From positions 1 through 64,000 of the forward strand of contig NZ_JBDLLU010000011.1 in NCBI RefSeq assembly GCF_039749495.1: a DNA stretch of 64,000 bases, given 5' to 3'. The notes under the pieces are model-generated. The model had not been told where the DNA came from, did not search any database, and worked only from the letters and a program-made list of their open reading frames with translations. Every line of letters begins with the position of its first letter. The first letter of the stretch is position 1. Both the position numbers and the translations under genes were made by a program. The stretch is from Dehalogenimonas sp. THU2 (lineage in GTDB: Bacteria > Chloroflexota > Dehalococcoidia > Dehalococcoidales > Dehalococcoidaceae). Shown in pieces: positions 20,018-46,343 of this stretch.

Positions 20018-21286
20018 ATGCTGCTCAGTCTGGGCATCTTTATTTTAACCATCGCCGGGATCGTCCTGAGGCCCTGGCGCGTGCCTGAAGCCGCCGTCGC
20101 CGTAATAGGTGCGGCGACTATGATCGTCTTAGGCGACCTGACACTGCCCGAGGCCGGCGGCGCCCTCTCCGGCAGCCTCAACGTGCTGGCCTTCTTCCTG
20201 GGGCTGATGCTGGTGGCCGCTATCGCCGAAAGCGCCGGGCTGTTCGACCGGATCGTCGATACGGCGGTGAAACACGCCCGGGGCAGCGGACGGCGCCTGC
20301 TGATCATCGTCTTTGCGGCGGGAACGGTCATCACCGTGCTGCTGTCCAACGACGCCACCGCCCTGATGCTGACGCCGGTGGTCATCGTGCTGGTGGTCCG
20401 TCTCAAGCTGAATCCGCTGCCGTATGTTTTTGCCTGCGCCTTTATCGCCAACGCCGCGTCGGTGCTCCTGCCGGTGGCCAACCCGGTCAACCTGCTGGCG
20501 GTGGACGCCTTCGACCTGCGGCTGGGGGATTACCTTGCGCACCTGCTGCTGCCCGGTCTGGCGGTGATAAGTATCACCATCGGCCTGTTCCTGTTCATCT
20601 TCCGGCGGGAGCTCCGGGCGGCTTTCCCGGACGGCGCCGATGGCGGGCTTATGCCGATGGCGCCGCATAACCGGATGCTCCGCCCGGTGGCGATCACCCT
20701 GGTATTCATCGTCCTGGGTTATTTATGGTTTTCCCTGAACGGCTGGCCGCTCTCAATACCGGTGATCGGCGGCGCAGCGGCGCTCCTGCTCATGGGACTG
20801 ATCTTCAACGGACCCGGCTGGGGGGAACTGCGCCGCTCCGTGAGCTGGTCTATCCTGCCGTTCATCGGGGGGCTGGCGGTGCTGGTGCGGGGGCTGGAAA
20901 GCGGCGGCGTGATCGATAAACTGAGCCAGGGGCTTGTATCGCTTCTCAACCACGGGGAATTGTCCGCGTCCGTGGCCGCCTCAGCGGGCACGGCGGCCGG
21001 GGCCAATCTCATGAACAACTGGCCGGCGATGATGGTTTCCGTCTCCACCCTGGCCGGCGCGGAGGGGGCGCTGTCCGCCAACCCGGGCCTGCCCTACCAG
21101 GTGATACTGGGGGCGGGACTGGGGCCGAATATCGCCATCTTCGGTTCTTTCTCCACCATGCTGTGGCTGGTGCTGCTGCGACGCCGGGGACTGCAGGTCA
21201 AACCGATGAACTATTTCAAATTGGGACTGATCGTGACGCCCCCGGCCCTGCTGGCCGGCAGCCTGATCCTTTACCGGTTAAGTTAA
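20018..21286 (+). CDS. ArsB/NhaD-type (ion transporter superfamily) membrane protein
   Basis: A 422-residue integral membrane protein with about 11-12 hydrophobic segments. It carries the ion transporter superfamily hallmarks: LSNDATALMLTPVVIVL near residue 110, paired with a second-half segment GTAAGANLMNNWPAMM near residue 325. The asparagine-rich half-helices resemble ArsB arsenite and NhaD Na+/H+ carriers. No ars genes are adjacent, so the substrate is open. No good ribosome-binding site precedes the ATG. The MFS gene starts one base after its stop, so the two transporters form an operon. Confidence 0.85.
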   Translation: MLLSLGIFILTIAGIVLRPWRVPEAAVAVIGAATMIVLGDLTLPEAGGALSGSLNVLAFFLGLMLVAAIAESAGLFDRIVDTAVKHARGSGRRLLIIVFAAGTVITVLLSNDATALMLTPVVIVLVVRLKLNPLPYVFACAFIANAASVLLPVANPVNLLAVDAFDLRLGDYLAHLLLPGLAVISITIGLFLFIFRRELRAAFPDGADGGLMPMAPHNRMLRPVAITLVFIVLGYLWFSLNGWPLSIPVIGGAAALLLMGLIFNGPGWGELRRSVSWSILPFIGGLAVLVRGLESGGVIDKLSQGLVSLLNHGELSASVAASAGTAAGANLMNNWPAMMVSVSTLAGAEGALSANPGLPYQVILGAGLGPNIAIFGSFSTMLWLVLLRRRGLQVKPMNYFKLGLIVTPPALLAGSLILYRLS

Positions 21287-21287
21287 G

Positions 21288-22712
21288 ATGAAAACCTTTG
21301 CCCCCGATCCTAAAATAAATAAAAGCCTGCGCTATTCGATATTCGACGGCGCAGCCTATAACGCCATGCTGGGGTTCACCCAGGATTTCATGGCGCCTTT
21401 AGCCCTGGCGCTTAAGGCTTCCACCGGCCAGATCGGCCTGCTGGCCAGCCTGCCCAACCTGGCGCTGGCGATATCTCAGCTGGGCTCGCCTTATATTTCC
21501 GAGCGGCTGGGTAGCCGCAAGGCGCTGATCATACCGGTGGTGCTGGTCCAGGCGCTTTTATGGCTGCCGATACTGCTGCTGCCCCAGTTGTTCGAGGGGA
21601 ACGCGGTGTGGTGGCTTATCGCCCTGTTCACCGCCGGCAGCGTCTTCGGGGCGTTCGGCAATCCGGCCTGGGGCAGCATGATGGCCGACCTGGTGCCGGT
21701 GGCGATGCGCGGCCGGTACTTCGGGCTGCGCAACAAGATCGGGGGCATGTTCCTTTTAGGCGGCTTTTTGATCGGCGGCGCGGTGCTGGAGCTTTCCGGG
21801 CGCCACGCGATGATAGGTTTTTCGGTGCTGCTGGGCGGGGCGATGCTGTTCCGCCTGGCGTCAGCCTTTTTCCTCAGCCGGATGTACGAACCGCCGGCGC
21901 GGCGCTGCCCGGATAAATTCAATCCCTTCAAGGAACTCCGGAACCTGCCGGCCAGCGGGGGCGGACGCCTGAGCATGTATGTGGCGGCGCTGATGATGTC
22001 CACTTATATCGCCGCGCCGTTCTTCACCGTCTATCTGCTGAAGGATATCGGGGTCAGTTACGGCATCTTCGTCATCATCATCGCCGCCGCGGCCATCACC
22101 AACTTTTTGTTCATGGGTTTCTGGGGGCGGCTGGCGGACAGGCGCGGCCAGTTCAAGGTGATGCGGCTGACATCATACGTCATCCCCTTCGTGCCCATAC
22201 TGTGGCTGGGCGGCCACGGCCTGATCTACCTGATCGTCATCCAGGCCATTTCCGGTATTGCCTGGAGCGGCTTCAACCTGTCCGCCACCAACCTGCTTTA
22301 CGAATCCGCCGATCCCGAACGCCGCACCCGCGTTATCGCGCTGTTCAACGCGCTCTCCGGTCTGGCCCTGTGCGGCGGCGCCCTGCTGGGAGGACTGCTC
22401 GCGCCGGTGCTGCCCAAGATCGGCGGGCATGCTTTCCTGACGCTGTTCCTTGTTTCGGGAATTCTGCGAGGGATAACCGTGGCCGTGCTGCTACCGAAGA
22501 TAGCGCCTTCGGGACGGGGCGCTCAGGTGCCGAACATCCCGTCGAGGCCTTTTATCCCGGCACTGCGGCGGATCACCATGTGGGCGACGATCCAGTTGTG
22601 GTCCCTGGGTATCCTGGTGTCCCGCATGCTCCCCACCCGGGCGGCCAGGTTTTCCGCGCCGCAACTGGAACAAAAACGGCCGGTGGAGCCTTATCCGCCG
22701 TGGCCGGGCTAA
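21288..22712 (+). CDS. MFS transporter
   Basis: A 474-residue major facilitator with about twelve membrane segments. The loop 2-3 motif reads SERLGSRKA and its second-half counterpart GRLADRRGQ. A conserved GNPAWGSMMADLVP segment lies near residue 125. Substrate is unknown. The C-terminal 45 residues are polar and proline-rich, unusual for a simple MFS protein. It is coupled to the preceding transporter gene (one-base gap), and a promoter follows it for the next operon. Confidence 0.88.
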   Translation: MKTFAPDPKINKSLRYSIFDGAAYNAMLGFTQDFMAPLALALKASTGQIGLLASLPNLALAISQLGSPYISERLGSRKALIIPVVLVQALLWLPILLLPQLFEGNAVWWLIALFTAGSVFGAFGNPAWGSMMADLVPVAMRGRYFGLRNKIGGMFLLGGFLIGGAVLELSGRHAMIGFSVLLGGAMLFRLASAFFLSRMYEPPARRCPDKFNPFKELRNLPASGGGRLSMYVAALMMSTYIAAPFFTVYLLKDIGVSYGIFVIIIAAAAITNFLFMGFWGRLADRRGQFKVMRLTSYVIPFVPILWLGGHGLIYLIVIQAISGIAWSGFNLSATNLLYESADPERRTRVIALFNALSGLALCGGALLGGLLAPVLPKIGGHAFLTLFLVSGILRGITVAVLLPKIAPSGRGAQVPNIPSRPFIPALRRITMWATIQLWSLGILVSRMLPTRAARFSAPQLEQKRPVEPYPPWPG

Positions 22713-22752: not shown

Positions 22753-22780
22753 TTGACGCCACGCGCAGGTTTGCTACAAT
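22753..22780 (+). promoter_or_regulatory. Sigma-70 promoter of the kamA operon
   Basis: TTGACG and TACAAT are separated by 16 bp. Transcription would start about 20 bases before the kamA ATG, which has its own AGGAG site. Confidence 0.65.
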
Positions 22781-22806: not shown

Positions 22807-24072
22807 ATGAAACAAGACACCATCACTGTCGAAGCGGACGAACCCCCCCTCCCATTGTCCGAATCCAACCGCCGAAAATACTTCGGTAACATCTCCGGCG
22901 CCGAGTGGAACGACTGGCGCTGGCATTTCCGGAACCGCATCACCTCCGTTGAAGACTTATCCCGCTTCCTGCCGTTATCGGTCAAGGAACGCACCCGGCT
23001 CAAACTGGTCTCCGCCCGGTATCCGTTTGCCATCACCCCTTATTACATGTGCCAGATGGACCTGGACAACCCCGCCGACCCCATCCGCCAGCAGGCTGTT
23101 CCCTGCGTCCAGGAGCTGGCTCCGGGCAGCGGCCGGGAAGATCCTCTGGAAGAAGGCAGCCACTCCGTGGTGCCGGGACTGGTTCACCGCTACCCCGACC
23201 GCGCGCTGATGGTGCTGACCGATCTCTGTCCCATGCTGTGCCGCCACTGCACCCGCAAACGGGAATGGCGTAACGGCGGCTGGGTCCACTCCCCCGCCGA
23301 GGTGGAACGAATGCTGGATTATATCCGCCGAACGCCCCAGATCCGGGACGTCATCATCTCCGGCGGCGACCCCTTGAGCCTTTCTACCCGGCGCCTGGAA
23401 GAAGTCCTGGCTGCTTTACGTGAGATCAAGCACGTTGAGATCATCCGCATCGGCACCCGTTTCCCGGTGGTGCTGCCGCAGCGCATCGACGCCGAACTCT
23501 GCGATATGCTCTCCAAATACGGCCCGATCTGGCTGAACACCCATTTCAATCATCCGAACGAGATCACGCCGGAATCAACCGCCGCCTGCGACCGCCTGCT
23601 GCGCTCAGGCGTCCAGGTCAACAACCAGAGCGTGCTGCTGCGCGGCATCAACGATACGGTGGACACGCAGCTCAAGCTGTGCCACGGCCTGCTCAAGGCC
23701 AAGGTGAGGCCTTACTACCTCTTCCAGTGCGACCAGGTCCAGGGCACCGAGCACCTGTGGACGCCGGTGGAGGTGGGATTGCGTATCATCGAAGGCATGC
23801 GCGGGCATACTTCCGGCCTGGCCATCCCCAATTACGTCATCGACCTGCCGGACGGCCGGGGCAAGATACCGCTCGCGCCCAATTACGTCCTGAGCCGCAC
23901 GGATCAGGAGCTGGTGGTCAGGAACTACGAAGGCCATATCAGTCACTTCGCCAATCCGGCACACATCGCCCCGGTGCGTAAACATAAGGCGGCGCCCGCA
24001 GGACCCCAACTCAAACTCGATCTGAACACGACTGAGGTAAAAGATGAAAATAGGGCTGGCGTACGATCTTAA
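22807..24072 (+). CDS. kamA: Lysine 2,3-aminomutase family radical SAM enzyme
   Basis: A radical SAM, PLP-dependent aminomutase that shifts an amino group from C2 to C3. The [4Fe-4S] motif CPMLCRHC follows LTDL near residue 140. The PLP Lys lies in LPDGRGKIP. Asp residues in FQCDQ and YVIDLP occupy the places of D293 and D330 of clostridial lysine 2,3-aminomutase, which bind the substrate's epsilon-amine. Lysine is therefore the expected substrate rather than glutamate. At 421 residues it is full length, not the short EpmB form. The ATG after AGGAG begins a four-gene operon with overlapping ORFs; the next gene overlaps by 29 bases. Confidence 0.93.
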   Translation: MKQDTITVEADEPPLPLSESNRRKYFGNISGAEWNDWRWHFRNRITSVEDLSRFLPLSVKERTRLKLVSARYPFAITPYYMCQMDLDNPADPIRQQAVPCVQELAPGSGREDPLEEGSHSVVPGLVHRYPDRALMVLTDLCPMLCRHCTRKREWRNGGWVHSPAEVERMLDYIRRTPQIRDVIISGGDPLSLSTRRLEEVLAALREIKHVEIIRIGTRFPVVLPQRIDAELCDMLSKYGPIWLNTHFNHPNEITPESTAACDRLLRSGVQVNNQSVLLRGINDTVDTQLKLCHGLLKAKVRPYYLFQCDQVQGTEHLWTPVEVGLRIIEGMRGHTSGLAIPNYVIDLPDGRGKIPLAPNYVLSRTDQELVVRNYEGHISHFANPAHIAPVRKHKAAPAGPQLKLDLNTTEVKDENRAGVRS

Positions 24073-25057
24073 ACAGGCGATAGCCGCGCCGGTTGCCGGC
24101 CCCGACGATACCCTGGAAGAATATGATTCAGCGGAAACGGTAGATCTCCTGGCTGCCGCCATCCGGAGCGCAGGGCATAGCGCCGTCAAGCTGGGCGGCG
24201 GGCGTGAGTTTCTGGAAAACGTCCTGAACACCAGCGTCGATTTCGTCTTCAACATCTCGGAGGGGCGGGGGGCGTATCGCAGCCGGGAATCCCAGGTGCC
24301 GGCGGTGCTGGAGATGCTCGGCATCCCCTATTCCGGCGCCGATCCCCAGACGCTGGCTATCGCGCTGGATAAACCGCTCACCAAGCGCATCCTGCAAACC
24401 GCCGGGGTGACCACGCCCAAATGGCACGTATTCAGAACGCCCGACGATGCCAAAAACGTCGATTGGGCGGGCTTCCGGTTCCCGGTCTTCGTCAAGCCGG
24501 CTTTCGAGGGGTCCAGCAAGGGCATCCGCGTCACCTCGATGGTGGCGACGCCGGAACAGGCAGAGGAGCAGGTGTCGGCCCTTTTCGAGAGCTACGGACA
24601 GCCGGTGATGGCGGAAGAATTCATCGACGGCGATGAGGTCACCTGCGGCATCATCGGCAACCTGGGTGAAACCGGGGCCGAACCGCTGGTGCTGCCGCTG
24701 CGCGTCCTACCGCGGCAGAAAACCGGTCCGTTCATCTATTCCGTGGAAGTTAAAAGAAACTATAAACAAATGGTGGACTACGAGTACCCGGCCAGGCTGC
24801 CGCAGCCGGTGTTGGAGTGCCTGAAAGAGCAGGCGCTGCTGGTATATAAGACCCTGGGTTGCCGTGACTTCAGCCGCGCGGACTTCCGCATTTCCGCCGA
24901 CGGGACGCCCCATTTCCTGGAGGTCAACCCCCTGCCGGGGTTGTCACTCGACAGCGACCTCTTTATCATCGCCACCGCGATGGGCTGGGGCCACGAAAGA
25001 CTTATCCGGTCGGTTCTCGACGCCGCCCTGTCGAGGTACCCCCAACTATGCGGGTAG
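24044..25057 (+). CDS. ATP-grasp ligase, D-Ala-D-Ala ligase-like (1)
   Basis: A 337-residue ATP-grasp enzyme of the D-alanine-D-alanine ligase class. An N-terminal Rossmann-like region (MKIGLAYDL) leads to FNISEG, then PVFVKPAFEGSSKGI for ATP binding near residue 150 and DFRISADGTPHFLEVNPLPG for Mg binding near residue 285. Such enzymes join a carboxylate to an amine through an acyl phosphate. It overlaps kamA by 29 bases and the next ligase by 10, which implies coupled translation. With no cell-wall genes nearby, a role in making an amide of beta-lysine or another small peptide is more likely than peptidoglycan synthesis (inference). Confidence 0.88.
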   Translation: MKIGLAYDLKQAIAAPVAGPDDTLEEYDSAETVDLLAAAIRSAGHSAVKLGGGREFLENVLNTSVDFVFNISEGRGAYRSRESQVPAVLEMLGIPYSGADPQTLAIALDKPLTKRILQTAGVTTPKWHVFRTPDDAKNVDWAGFRFPVFVKPAFEGSSKGIRVTSMVATPEQAEEQVSALFESYGQPVMAEEFIDGDEVTCGIIGNLGETGAEPLVLPLRVLPRQKTGPFIYSVEVKRNYKQMVDYEYPARLPQPVLECLKEQALLVYKTLGCRDFSRADFRISADGTPHFLEVNPLPGLSLDSDLFIIATAMGWGHERLIRSVLDAALSRYPQLCG

Positions 25058-26043
25058 GTCTGGTATATAACCGGCATTTGCCTTCCCTTTATGACGCCAT
25101 GGGCGAATCCGCGGCGGAATCCGGCGTCATGGAGGCGGTCAGGGCGGTGCGGCGGGCGCTCCGGGCGCTGGGTCATGATTTCACCGAAGTGCCGCTGTCG
25201 CCGCCGCTGGAAAGGGTAAGGGAAACCCTGGCCGGGATCCAGGCCGATGTCATTTTCAACCTGTTCGAGGGCTTTGCCGGCCTGCCGATGACCGAGGCGG
25301 CGGTAGCGGGCATCATCGAAGATTTGAGGCTTCCCTTCACCGGATCGCCAGCCGCCGCCCTGGCGTTAACGCTGGACAAGCCGGAGGCTATTCAGGCGCT
25401 GCGCGCCCGCGGCGTCCGCACGCCAAATTACCAGTTGCTGGACATGGATAACCTCGACAGTTTCAACCTGGATTTCCCCTGCATCGTCAAGCCCCGCGCC
25501 GATGACGCCTCCCACGGCCTGTCCGAGCGCAGCGTCGTTTTCGACCGGGACGCGCTTTTTCATGAGGTCAGGACGATGGTTGAACGGTACGACGGCGCGC
25601 CCGCCCTGGTGGAGGCCTTCCTGGGCGGACGCGAATTCAACGCCACCGTTTGGGGCGTGAAAAACCCGGAAGTGCTGCCGCTGTCCGAGATCATGTATTC
25701 CCTGCCCGACGGGCTGCCGAAGATACTCACCTTCGCCGCTAAATGGGAACCCCACAGCATGTACTTCAAGCATACCGCGGTCAAGTGCCCGGCCGAGGTG
25801 ACCAAGGAGCTGGGCGCTGAGATCCGGGAGGCGGCGATGGCCGCGTTTCTGGCAGCGGGCTGCCGCGGTTACGGCCGGGTGGACATGAGGCTGGACCGGG
25901 ACGGCCGCCCGGTGGTCATGGAGATCAACGCCAACCCGGATATCGCCCCGGGCACCGGCGTCGCTCGCCAGGCTAAAGCCGCCGGGTATTCCTACAAGGG
26001 TATGGTGGAGGCGATCATAAATTTCGGGCTGGAATCTTCGTGA
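25048..26043 (+). CDS. ATP-grasp ligase, D-Ala-D-Ala ligase-like (2)
   Basis: A second, diverged ATP-grasp ligase of 331 residues. It shares the layout of its neighbour: MRVGLVYN start, FNLFEGFAG, FPCIVKPRADDASHG near residue 150 and VDMRLDRDGRPVVMEINANPD near residue 290. Low similarity between the two copies outside these motifs suggests different substrates, as in a two-step ligation. The ORF overlaps the preceding gene by 10 bases and the GNAT gene by 4. Its product is unknown. Confidence 0.88.
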   Translation: MRVGLVYNRHLPSLYDAMGESAAESGVMEAVRAVRRALRALGHDFTEVPLSPPLERVRETLAGIQADVIFNLFEGFAGLPMTEAAVAGIIEDLRLPFTGSPAAALALTLDKPEAIQALRARGVRTPNYQLLDMDNLDSFNLDFPCIVKPRADDASHGLSERSVVFDRDALFHEVRTMVERYDGAPALVEAFLGGREFNATVWGVKNPEVLPLSEIMYSLPDGLPKILTFAAKWEPHSMYFKHTAVKCPAEVTKELGAEIREAAMAAFLAAGCRGYGRVDMRLDRDGRPVVMEINANPDIAPGTGVARQAKAAGYSYKGMVEAIINFGLESS

Positions 26044-26540
26044 ACGTCATTTATCGCCCGCTCGAACCCGCCGACAAGGCGGCGATCATGTCTTTTCTCG
26101 GCCGCGTCCCGGAATTCGCCCCGGATGAGATACCGGTGGCCGAAGAAGTGCTGGACGCCTGCACCGGCAACCCGCTGACATCAGGCTATTATTGCCTCAT
26201 CGCGGAGAACGATGGGCGGGTGGCCGGTTATGTCTGCTACGGCAATACGCCGCTCACCAAAGGCAACTGGGAGATTTACTGGATCGCCGTCGATCCGGTG
26301 TCACAGGGGCTGGGCATCGGGCGGGAACTGATGCGCCGGGCCGAGGCCGGTATCCGCTCACGCGGCGGCTGGCAGGTGACGCTGGAAACATCCTCGACGC
26401 CGCTATACGACAAGACCCGCCGCTTTTACCTGAAATGCGGCTATGCGGAGATAACCCGGATACCTGATTTCTATGACCGCGGCGACGACCTGGTCATGTA
26501 TTTCAAAAAACTCGATCAGGCTTCGGAAGACCGGCAATAG
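26040..26540 (+). CDS. GNAT family N-acetyltransferase
   Basis: A 166-residue acetyltransferase. The acetyl-CoA pyrophosphate-binding loop reads QGLGIGRELMRRAE near residue 90, preceded by the beta-strand segment WEIYWIAVDP. The GTG start overlaps the ligase stop (GTGA). It is shorter than the known beta-lysine acetyltransferase AblB (about 270 residues), so the simple N-epsilon-acetyl-beta-lysine pathway is not an obvious match. As the last gene of the kamA operon it may cap the product's amine (inference). Its 3' end overlaps a convergent small gene by 25 bases. Confidence 0.87.
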   Translation: MNVIYRPLEPADKAAIMSFLGRVPEFAPDEIPVAEEVLDACTGNPLTSGYYCLIAENDGRVAGYVCYGNTPLTKGNWEIYWIAVDPVSQGLGIGRELMRRAEAGIRSRGGWQVTLETSSTPLYDKTRRFYLKCGYAEITRIPDFYDRGDDLVMYFKKLDQASEDRQ

Positions 26541-42857: not shown

Positions 42858-42886
42858 TTGCGCCCCTAATATTAAGCGCCTATAAT
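42858..42886 (+). promoter_or_regulatory. Promoter of efp-epmA
   Basis: TTGCGC and TATAAT are separated by 17 bp. The leader to the efp GTG is about 45 bases and contains GGAGG. Confidence 0.6.
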
Positions 42887-42938
42887 ATCGGTTCGGCCAT
42901 TAACGACTTTTAATACAACTGGAGGACGCCCAAAGCCT

Positions 42939-43499
42939 GTGGAAGTCTCTGAAGTCAGCAAAAATAATAAACTCCTCATCGACGGCGTGCCGTTTGCCGT
43001 AGAAAACGTCAGCTTCGTCAAACCGGGCAAAGGCCGCGCCATATATCACCTGAAACTCCGGAACCTTATGACCGGCGTCCTCAGTGAGCCGACCTACCAC
43101 TCCGGCGACAAGTTCGACGAGGCCAGCATCACCGTCCGCGACATGCAGTTCCTTTACGAAGAACATGGTCACTACCATTTCATGGATACCGGCAGCTTCG
43201 AGCAATACATCATGGACGAGACCATCGTCGGCGACAAGAAGTTCTACCTTAAAGACAGCCTCGGCGTTCAGGTGATGATGTGGGAAGAGCGCCCCATCGA
43301 TCTCATCCTGCCCAAGGCGGTGGAACTCAAGGTGGTGGAAACCGAGTCTTCCATGAAGGGTGCTACGGTCACCGCTCAGCAGAAGCTGGCCAAGATGGAA
43401 ACGGGCCTGGAGATCGGCGTGCCGGCCTTCATCAAGGAAGGCGAAGTGCTGCGCATCAATACCCTCACCGGTAGCTATGTGGAACGCGTCGTAGGCTAG
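42939..43499 (+). CDS. efp: Elongation factor P
   Basis: A ribosome factor that relieves stalling at proline runs. The 186-residue, three-domain protein has the acceptor loop VKPGKGRA with Lys31 at the tip, matching Lys34 of E. coli EF-P, the beta-lysylation site. The C-terminus reads INTLTGSYVERV. Start is GTG; the GGAGG site is 13 bases away, longer than ideal, but no better start exists. The modification enzyme gene epmA starts four bases downstream, so substrate and modifier are co-expressed. Confidence 0.95.
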   Translation: MEVSEVSKNNKLLIDGVPFAVENVSFVKPGKGRAIYHLKLRNLMTGVLSEPTYHSGDKFDEASITVRDMQFLYEEHGHYHFMDTGSFEQYIMDETIVGDKKFYLKDSLGVQVMMWEERPIDLILPKAVELKVVETESSMKGATVTAQQKLAKMETGLEIGVPAFIKEGEVLRINTLTGSYVERVVG

Positions 43500-43503
43500 A
43501 CTC

Positions 43504-44409
43504 GTGGGTCTGGAGCGACTCGTTGCCAGGAAGGCCAACCTCATCCGCCGCGCTGAAATATTGCGCCTGACCAGGGGGTTTTTCCACGAGCGCCGTTTCC
43601 TGGAAGTGGAGACACCCCAACTGGCGGCGGCGCCGATTCCTGAAGCTTACATCGAACCTGTCGCCACCGAGCGCGGCTTCCTGCTGCCTTCCCCGGAGCT
43701 TTATATGAAACCGCTACTGGCGGCGGGATATGGCGACATCTTTCAGATATGCCGGGTTTTCAGAAAAGGCGAAAAAGGCGCCCAGCACCGCGAAGAATTC
43801 ACCCTGCTGGAATATTACCGCACCGGCGCCGGGTACCTCGACCTGGCCGCCGAGACCGAAGAGCTGATCGTCTACCTCGCGGAATCACTGAACGGCTCGA
43901 CGCTGCTATGTTATCAGGGCCGGACCATCGACCTCACTCCGCCCTGGCCCCGGCTTTCGGTTAAAGAGGCGTTTATGGATGCCTGCGGCTGGGACCCGGT
44001 AACCATCGACGACCCGGAGCGCTTCGATTTCGAACTGGCTACCAAGGTGGCCTCCATGCTCCCGGACCGCCCGCTTGTCCTCTACGATTTCCCTACTAAA
44101 ATGGCCTCTTTAGCCCGCCTGAAACCCGGCGACAGCAGGGTGGCGGAACGCACTGAGATTTTCATCGGCGGGCTGGAACTGGCCAATATCTTCAGCGAAC
44201 TAACCGATGCAGAAGAACAACGGAAGCGTTTCAAAGCCGAGATCGAGTTGGCGGCAGACCAGGGGCGGAAGGTGGATATGCCGGAAGACTTCATCGAAGC
44301 CCTGAAGGAATTGCCGGAGGCCGCGGGGGGGGCGCTGGGTATCGACCGGTTGGTGATGCTCCTATGCGATGCCGCTTCGATCGAAGAAGTGCTGGCCTTT
44401 CCGGGCTAA
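43504..44409 (+). CDS. epmA: EF-P beta-lysine ligase (lysyl-tRNA synthetase paralog)
   Basis: EpmA (PoxA/GenX) attaches (R)-beta-lysine to the acceptor Lys of EF-P. The protein is a 301-residue class II lysyl-tRNA synthetase catalytic core without the anticodon-binding domain. Motif 2 is QICRVFRKGEKGAQHREEFTLLEYYR, and motif 3 is GGALGIDRLVMLL. Start is GTG. It overlaps the convergent nitrilase-family gene by four bases. The beta-lysine donor could be the KamA encoded at 22807-24072, since no EpmB-type gene is adjacent (inference). Confidence 0.93.
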   Translation: MGLERLVARKANLIRRAEILRLTRGFFHERRFLEVETPQLAAAPIPEAYIEPVATERGFLLPSPELYMKPLLAAGYGDIFQICRVFRKGEKGAQHREEFTLLEYYRTGAGYLDLAAETEELIVYLAESLNGSTLLCYQGRTIDLTPPWPRLSVKEAFMDACGWDPVTIDDPERFDFELATKVASMLPDRPLVLYDFPTKMASLARLKPGDSRVAERTEIFIGGLELANIFSELTDAEEQRKRFKAEIELAADQGRKVDMPEDFIEALKELPEAAGGALGIDRLVMLLCDAASIEEVLAFPG

Positions 44410-45110
44410 ATTTCCACTAGAGCGAGGTGTTCCTCGGCGTCCGGAGCTTCCCACAGAGTGCCGGTGGGAGTAGTCACGGCGCTCCTTGATGAAAGCACCG
44501 CTCCGTTAAAAGTACCGACGCGGGTTATCTTGATGACTGTCGCACCAAATTTCCTGGCGATAGTATCGGAAACTGGGTGACCGGTGAAGGGCGGGTGGTT
44601 GGGGTCGGTCAGAGAAACCGGCAGGAAGACGTATTTGGAACCTTCGCACACAGCGTCGACCATTTTCCAGTAGATACAATCGGCGCAGATCATCAGTCCA
44701 ACCCGTCCGAACGGTGTTTCGAACGTGACCGTGTCTTTGCCGGGGCAAATCTGAAGTTCCACCTCTTCACGGGTGATCTTGATCTTGCGATAGGCGGTTA
44801 CCTGCTCCCCGCCTTTGAAGACGAAACACGTATTATAGTAGCAGTCACCCTCACGCTCCAGGATGCTGCCGCCGATGATGTAGCCTTTGAACTGAAGGCT
44901 CGCCCGCTTCAGCATATCGTAGGCTGGCAGTGCTGTTTCCTCCAGGCATGATTGTAAGGTGTAAGGTTTGCGAAAATCGCCGCCTGGGATGGAGAAGAAT
45001 TCTGGCAGGGCGAAGAAGTCGGCGTCGGTGTTTACGATGGCATCATAAGCCTTAGCGATATTCGTTGCGGCATCGCCACTGTCGGCGATCTGATAGATGG
45101 CTACCTTCAT
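44406..45110 (-). CDS. Carbon-nitrogen hydrolase (nitrilase superfamily) 2
   Basis: A 234-residue amidohydrolase with Glu in ALPEFFSIPGG, Lys in YRKIKITREEVE and Cys in LMICADCIYWK, the nitrilase triad. The substrate is unknown. It is distinct from the enzyme at 28861: shorter, with a different active-site surround. It follows the nitronate monooxygenase gene by six bases, so they form a two-gene operon. Its end overlaps epmA. Confidence 0.86.
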   Translation of the reverse strand: MKVAIYQIADSGDAATNIAKAYDAIVNTDADFFALPEFFSIPGGDFRKPYTLQSCLEETALPAYDMLKRASLQFKGYIIGGSILEREGDCYYNTCFVFKGGEQVTAYRKIKITREEVELQICPGKDTVTFETPFGRVGLMICADCIYWKMVDAVCEGSKYVFLPVSLTDPNHPPFTGHPVSDTIARKFGATVIKITRVGTFNGAVLSSRSAVTTPTGTLWEAPDAEEHLALVEI

Positions 45111-45116
45111 GGTGCT

Positions 45117-46343
45117 TTAGGCCAGGCTCCGGCCCATGGAAGGGGACATCATGCCGTTCATATAACGCGTCATGAGTTCCAGCATAGATTGAACAACCGC
45201 GGCTTTGTATTCCTTGACCAGCGAACCAATCAGCTTCTGCACTGTGACGATCTCTTTCACCCGGTGCACATTGGCGCCGCAAAAAGCGAAACCACCGCTC
45301 AGGTGGCCCCGCTGGGCGTTGATGAGGGCGACGAAGATACAATAAGGACTTTCCTGAACGTTGCACGTTTTGACGCAGTGCTGGGGGCATTTGAAAGGTT
45401 TCTTTTGTCCTGCATTGACGCTGTCGATGTAGGCATTCCGGAGCGCCCGGCCGGGCATGCCCACCGGGCTTTTAATGATAACGGCGTCGCCTTCCTTAGC
45501 CTGAACGTAGGCTTCTTTGAAGATAGGAGAGGCGTCACATTCCTCGGTAGCCACGAAACGGGTAGCCATCTGAACGCCGCTGGCACCGAGGCGCAGCATC
45601 TGATAGATGTCTTCACCGCTATAAACCCCGCCACCGGCAATCACCGGTATAGGACGACCCGCTGCCTCGGCGAAAGGTTTGACCGCTTCGATAACTTCAG
45701 GTACCAGCCGCTCCAGGCGGTTTTCCGGTGAATCCAGTTCTTCGGCTTTGAAACCCAGGTGACCGCCAGCTTTCGGTCCTTCCACGACAAAACCGTCCGG
45801 TGTGTAGCCGAATTCATCCTGCCATTTTTTGCATAAAATGCGCGCTGCCCGTCCGGAGGAGACGATGGGTACCAGCTTAGTATGGCGGTTATCGCCCAAT
45901 AATTCAGGCAGCCTCAGGGGCAACCCGGCGCCGGCGAAAATGATGTCTATCTTTTCCTCGATAGCCGCCTTGACCATCTCGGCAAAATCAGTCAGGGCTA
46001 CCATGATGTTGACCCCCAGCACACCACTGGTCTTGGCGCGGGCGCGGCGGATCTCTTTGCGGAGACCGCGGATGTTGGCTTCAAAAAAATTCTTGGCAAA
46101 ATCAGGTTCGAACAGTCCTACGCCGGCGGCGGCGATAACGCCGATACCGCCGGCATTAGCCACGGCTGAAGCCAAACCGGACAGGGAAATACCGACCGCC
46201 ATGCCTCCCTGGACTATCGGAAGACGCGCCGTGTGCTGGCCGATCTTCAGCGGCGGCGGTTTGTGCCACTTCAACAGCTCTTCTACTTCAGACAGCGCCG
46301 AGCGCCCGATCGGTGTTTCCAATTCGGTCTCCTGTTGAGACAA
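45117..46343 (-). CDS. Nitronate monooxygenase family flavoprotein (2-nitropropane dioxygenase-like)
   Basis: A 408-residue FMN-dependent TIM-barrel enzyme. PIVQGGMAVGIS near residue 47, VIAGGGVYSGEDIYQMLRLGASGVQMATRF around 235-265 and the segment ECDASP identify the family. Anaerobes carry this version, and its real reaction there may differ from nitronate oxidation. A Cys-rich C-terminal part (CPQHCVKTC, then C at QESPYC) is unusual and could bind a metal. Start appears to be TTG. The operon partner is the nitrilase-family gene. Confidence 0.86.
   Translation of the reverse strand: MSQQETELETPIGRSALSEVEELLKWHKPPPLKIGQHTARLPIVQGGMAVGISLSGLASAVANAGGIGVIAAAGVGLFEPDFAKNFFEANIRGLRKEIRRARAKTSGVLGVNIMVALTDFAEMVKAAIEEKIDIIFAGAGLPLRLPELLGDNRHTKLVPIVSSGRAARILCKKWQDEFGYTPDGFVVEGPKAGGHLGFKAEELDSPENRLERLVPEVIEAVKPFAEAAGRPIPVIAGGGVYSGEDIYQMLRLGASGVQMATRFVATEECDASPIFKEAYVQAKEGDAVIIKSPVGMPGRALRNAYIDSVNAGQKKPFKCPQHCVKTCNVQESPYCIFVALINAQRGHLSGGFAFCGANVHRVKEIVTVQKLIGSLVKEYKAAVVQSMLELMTRYMNGMMSPSMGRSLA

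Follow-up and report, generated by a model that had tools for sequence, protein, structure and literature searches.

The window, by which we mean the whole 64,000-nucleotide stretch analysed here, carries a gene for elongation factor P (EF-P) followed directly by a gene for EpmA. This raises the question of where an EpmA with no EpmB encoded beside it would obtain beta-lysine. From the sequence comparisons described below, Lys31 of EF-P is probably beta-lysylated by the adjacent EpmA with beta-lysine from a KamA encoded 19 kb away, a source that would be shared with the kamA operon. The features of the efp-epmA transcription unit are:

42881 to 42886, plus strand: TATAAT, putative −10 element of the efp-epmA unit, read from the sequence and unreported by the consensus scan
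42939 to 43499, plus strand: efp, elongation factor P with a lysine-type loop, PGKGRA (TIGR00038, above cut-off)
43504 to 44409, plus strand: epmA, putative EF-P lysine/beta-lysine ligase without anticodon domain (TIGR00462, above cut-off)

Translation of efp starts at a GTG downstream of a GGAGG site and yields a product of 186 residues, which scores 206.5 bits against TIGR00038 (cut-off 185.8). The predicted acceptor, Lys31, lies in the sequence FVKPGKGRA and is the equivalent of Lys34 in E. coli. The GTG start of epmA is placed 4 nt past the efp stop. EpmA consists of 301 residues with one tRNA-synt_2 domain, the catalytic core of LysRS, and the anticodon-binding domain is absent; its TIGR00462 score of 287.1 bits is marginal, 0.2 bit above the cut-off of 286.9. 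The best solved relatives are the EpmA/PoxA structures 3G1Z and 3A5Z, and its named relatives are Dehalococcoidia MAGs. EpmA keeps the equivalents of Ser76 and Ala298, which are invariant across the EpmAs of the class Dehalococcoidia, whereas the LysRS of the same genome has Ala and Gly in these positions. Roy and colleagues are said to have found in 2011 that Ala298 governs the use of beta-lysine by EpmA. The loop of EF-P follows the presence of the ligase: upon alignment, PGKG is seen in 12 of 12 genomes with EpmA and in none of 22 without it, whose loops differ and are most often of the HIKMGRGSAQ type. The initial annotation had described efp with Lys31, followed directly by epmA as a LysRS paralog lacking the anticodon domain, and both descriptions hold. 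Its starting point of 42858 lies upstream of efp in the presumed promoter region, at a weak hexamer (TTGCGC) ahead of the TATAAT; the gene itself begins at 42939. On the minus strand (window 44406–46343), a carbon-nitrogen hydrolase gene overlaps the end of epmA by 4 nt and, together with a nitronate-monooxygenase-like gene, trails efp-epmA in all four relatives from the genus that were examined.

The genome containing the window (1.84 Mb in 35 contigs, 99.8% complete) encodes no EpmB above the family cut-off (TIGR03821), either adjacent to efp-epmA, as had been noted earlier, or elsewhere, and no match to EpmC or to AblB (TIGR03827) is found in it. A whole-genome look for a separate epmB, which had been proposed as a check on shared supply, returned only two genes of the KamA family: the kamA of the window and a divergent paralog of 456 residues (G000:C2:48107-49474), whose presence does not track that of EpmA. 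TIGR03821 alone proved too narrow a criterion for the absence of EpmB, since a single one of 50 named genomes with EpmA (a Psychromonas) passes it and the efp-linked KamAs of delta- and alphaproteobacteria also fall below its cut-off; KamA was therefore classified by gene neighbourhood and phylogeny as well. The candidate source and its neighbours are:

22753 to 22780, plus strand: promoter-like TTGACG-16-TACAAT before kamA (consensus match only, 10/12, with TG ahead of the −10)
22807 to 24072, plus strand: kamA, lysine 2,3-aminomutase family, proposed source of beta-lysine (2A5H, 443 bits; tree)
24044 to 25057, plus strand: ATP-grasp ligase 1, D-Ala-D-Ala-ligase-like (PF07478, 111 bits)
25048 to 26043, plus strand: ATP-grasp ligase 2, D-Ala-D-Ala-ligase-like (PF07478, 86 bits)
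26040 to 26540, plus strand: GNAT acetyltransferase of the kamA operon (PF00583), not AblB

The start of kamA is most likely the ATG at 22807, as first annotated, with an AGGAG site upstream in addition to the promoter-like element. The description of its product as a full-length KamA stands in part: with about 420 residues the protein keeps the equivalents of the lysine-binding Asp293 and Asp330 and the first half of LAM_C, but not the cysteine-rich segment at the C-terminus of true LAM/AblA. A conserved KamA tail (ENRAGVRS and similar) was dismissed as a feature of the protein, as it comes from the 29 nt at the end of kamA that also encode the beginning of ATP-grasp ligase 1. The nearest solved structure is that of a lysine 2,3-aminomutase (2A5H). 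The protein shares with LAM/AblA the fold family, both aspartates, the radical SAM CxxxCxxC motif and the PLP lysine region; it differs in scoring 457.8 against the TIGR03820 cut-off of 525.4, in having Leu/Val rather than Ala after Asp330, in lacking the C-terminal cysteines and in having no AblB partner. Against TIGR03821 it reaches 236.8 of the required 369.3 bits. The C-terminal Zn-binding cysteines are absent throughout the clade of the window KamA; they are present in L081, L090–L092, L236 and L247.

Among 148 Dehalococcoidia genomes, 14 encode EpmA, in each case as an efp-epmA pair, and 134 do not. A KamA of the window clade is found in all 14 of the former and in 11 of the latter (Fisher 3e-13), a count that shares ancestry within families, with 9 of the 14 genomes coming from one order. 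Counted by family, the clade is present in 6/6 families with EpmA as against 13/70 families (p 1.3e-5). Five further EpmA-encoding genomes of the class, drawn later and including two from new families, all have a KamA of the window type, bringing the totals to 19/19 genomes and 8/8 families, and EpmB above the family cut-off is found in none of the original 14. The relation within the class is one-way: KamA occurs without EpmA, EpmA never without KamA. The two genes do not form one operon, as they lie about 20–228 kb apart in the class, and in the EpmA-encoding class genomes examined the KamA of this type adjoins ATP-grasp genes and never efp. Physical linkage of kamA and epmA was thus rejected, there being only loose synteny within the genus (about 20–181 kb).

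The arrangement kamA–ATP-grasp–ATP-grasp–GNAT (window 22807–26540; loci L064–L088) is widespread both in Dehalococcoidia and in deltaproteobacteria, in the latter at five loci and, with a different gene order, at two more. These operons draw their KamA from different clades. CitMHS/ArsB-like and MFS transporter genes precede kamA (window 20018–22712, plus strand), are kept in several genomes of the genus and are possible exporters of the operon's product. In Dehalococcoides-like genomes only the first ATP-grasp gene stands beside kamA, followed by genes resembling a zinc-uptake cluster; the second ATP-grasp gene and the GNAT gene are not found beside kamA there, and kamA and epmA are both kept. 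The Dehalococcoides-like sister genus encodes a fused AblA-AblB of about 741 residues (L090:3727-5949, L091:3647-5869, L092:3735-5993), which in L090 scores 758 bits with TIGR03820 and 345 bits with TIGR03827, corresponding to a lysine 2,3-aminomutase joined to a beta-lysine acetyltransferase. In one genome of 1.0 Mb (G327), kamA is broken into two reading frames towards its 3′ end (L332:6521-7683), by a frameshift or an assembly error, and the contig ends soon after.

In a tree of 49 KamAs, the window clade joins the KamAs of Syntrophales efp operons (support 99/96); LAM/AblA and the deltaproteobacterial KamAs linked to ATP-grasp genes fall elsewhere. Constraining the clade to group with LAM and the deltaproteobacterial ATP-grasp KamAs, or with the latter alone, was rejected (p-AU 0.012 and 0.015, respectively), values that are optimistic as the groups were named after the first tree had been seen. 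The closest relatives of the window KamA outside the class, then, adjoin efp-epmA. Across the tree, efp-linked KamAs appear in several places and ATP-grasp-linked ones in at least three, so that different KamA lineages appear to have taken up each role. In the EpmA tree, the Dehalococcoidia clade does not come out as sister to the EpmAs of those Syntrophales whose KamA is sister to the window clade, which leaves a transfer of epmA together with kamA from Syntrophales unsupported.

We infer from these observations both that KamA makes beta-lysine and that EpmA uses it. KamA would isomerise lysine to beta-lysine, part of which would enter the ATP-grasp/GNAT pathway; the other part would be activated by EpmA and joined to Lys31 of EF-P. 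KamA would in this way substitute for EpmB, and EF-P modification would share a beta-lysine pool with a peptide-like biosynthetic pathway. The initial annotation had proposed that KamA supplies both EF-P and its own operon, and the comparative support for this is strong, given that the enzyme accompanies EpmA in the initial sample and in the added genomes alike, lies beside ATP-grasp genes and occurs also without EpmA; the source it named is probably right.

Other explanations of the pattern were considered. EpmA might attach ordinary alpha-lysine, or work without beta-lysine, with KamA serving the ATP-grasp operon only. PoxA can use alpha-lysine, although less well, and such use has been proposed for Buchnera, which has no yjeK (PMC5354580; PMC9437257). 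Some EpmA-encoding MAGs outside the class, including Patescibacteria, show no KamA, so that the presence of EpmA does not require a source in the same genome; in three small Patescibacteria genomes, efp-epmA with the EpmA signature is found and no KamA is detected, and these organisms may import beta-lysine or use alpha-lysine. In Dehalococcoidia, however, EpmA retains Ala298, the residue that distinguishes it from LysRS, and none of the 19 EpmA-encoding genomes is without KamA, and we regard alpha-lysine as an improbable substrate here.

The co-occurrence could also be indirect, with both traits belonging to the same anaerobic lineages and EF-P being unmodified or EpmA having another target. 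The hosts do all belong to one class, and most of the initial EpmA-encoding genomes to one order; nevertheless, the association persists when counted by family, efp-epmA is a fixed pair, and the PGKG lysine loop is found in EF-P only where EpmA is present, which makes an indirect association very improbable. The least credible of these explanations is that the beta-lysine comes from the 456-residue paralog or from an unrecognised enzyme. The paralog is a member of the KamA superfamily (TIGR00238, 130 bits), but it scores below every family cut-off and is present in only 6 of the 19 EpmA-encoding genomes; in the class sample it occurs in 4/14 genomes with EpmA and 16/134 without, with no clear association (p 0.10), and it was rejected as a hidden EpmB.

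If KamA is the source, the stereochemistry of its product becomes important. E. coli EpmA uses (R)-beta-lysine, and lysine 2,3-aminomutase, the enzyme of the nearest structure, makes the (S) isomer. The homology of KamA to LAM would suggest the (S) isomer; the identity of EpmA and the position of KamA in the tree would suggest (R). The earlier premise that a classical KamA gives the (S) isomer fails for this protein, given that it has no Zn-cysteine C-terminus and falls with the efp-operon KamAs in the tree rather than with LAM/AblA. The residue after Asp330, picked post hoc, is Ala in LAM and aliphatic (Leu/Val) in efp-linked KamAs and the window clade, and is a suggestive hint to the isomer. 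Prediction at the residue level was abandoned, as the 27 columns separating LAM-like from efp-linked KamAs are split, the window clade being nearer to LAM at 16 and to the efp-linked proteins at 11. That EF-P of the class carries (S)-beta-lysine from the shared KamA, with EpmA here accepting the opposite isomer from the E. coli enzyme, seems to us rather unlikely.

The system resembles the EpmA/EpmB(/EpmC) (PoxA/YjeK/YfcM) system of Enterobacteria in its efp-epmA pair, PGKG loop, EpmA signature and a KamA-family enzyme in the genome; it differs in having neither an EpmB above cut-off nor EpmC, and in that KamA belongs to an ATP-grasp operon unlinked to efp. The KamA/EpmB-like proteins of Syntrophales efp operons (L235, L242, L245, L246, L249 and L262) share with it the well-supported branch and the absence of the Zn-cysteine C-terminus, but they are shorter, at 340–402 residues, and adjoin efp-epmA; four of the Syntrophales genomes have another KamA as well, encoded separately next to ATP-grasp genes. 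Outside the class, four EpmA-encoding Chloroflexota genomes have a KamA gene of another, alphaproteobacterial-like type adjoining efp-epmA. Bailly and de Crecy-Lagard used the C-terminus, the tree and the gene neighbourhood to tell YjeK from LAM; among 725 genomes, Planctomyces limnophilus and Buchnera were the only ones in which they found yjeA but no yjeK (PMC2821294). For the window KamA these three criteria disagree: its neighbourhood is not that of efp, its C-terminus is of an intermediate kind and in the tree it falls with efp-linked KamAs. Buchnera APS, which has efp and poxA without yjeK, likewise has EpmA without EpmB (PMC2821294, PMC5354580), but it is a reduced symbiont without a source enzyme, whereas Dehalococcoidia genomes with EpmA always have KamA. 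A precedent for an EF-P modifier that draws on a metabolite with other roles is rhamnosyl-EF-P, in which EarP uses the dTDP-rhamnose pool made by rmlABCD (PMC5354580); its chemistry is unrelated and its acceptor is Arg. In the literature searched, we found no description of EpmA or of a shared beta-lysine pool in Chloroflexota.

If the shared supply is correct, the activity of EF-P, and hence the translation of proline-rich proteins, would in these lineages depend on a compound that a peptide-like biosynthetic operon also draws upon. Such a coupling is known for rhamnose, and no example for beta-lysine was found in the literature searched. The natural EpmA/KamA pair would allow a direct test of whether EpmA is specific for the (R) or the (S) isomer. 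More than one KamA lineage would then have taken on the role of EpmB, and searches for EpmB only would under-count beta-lysylating bacteria.
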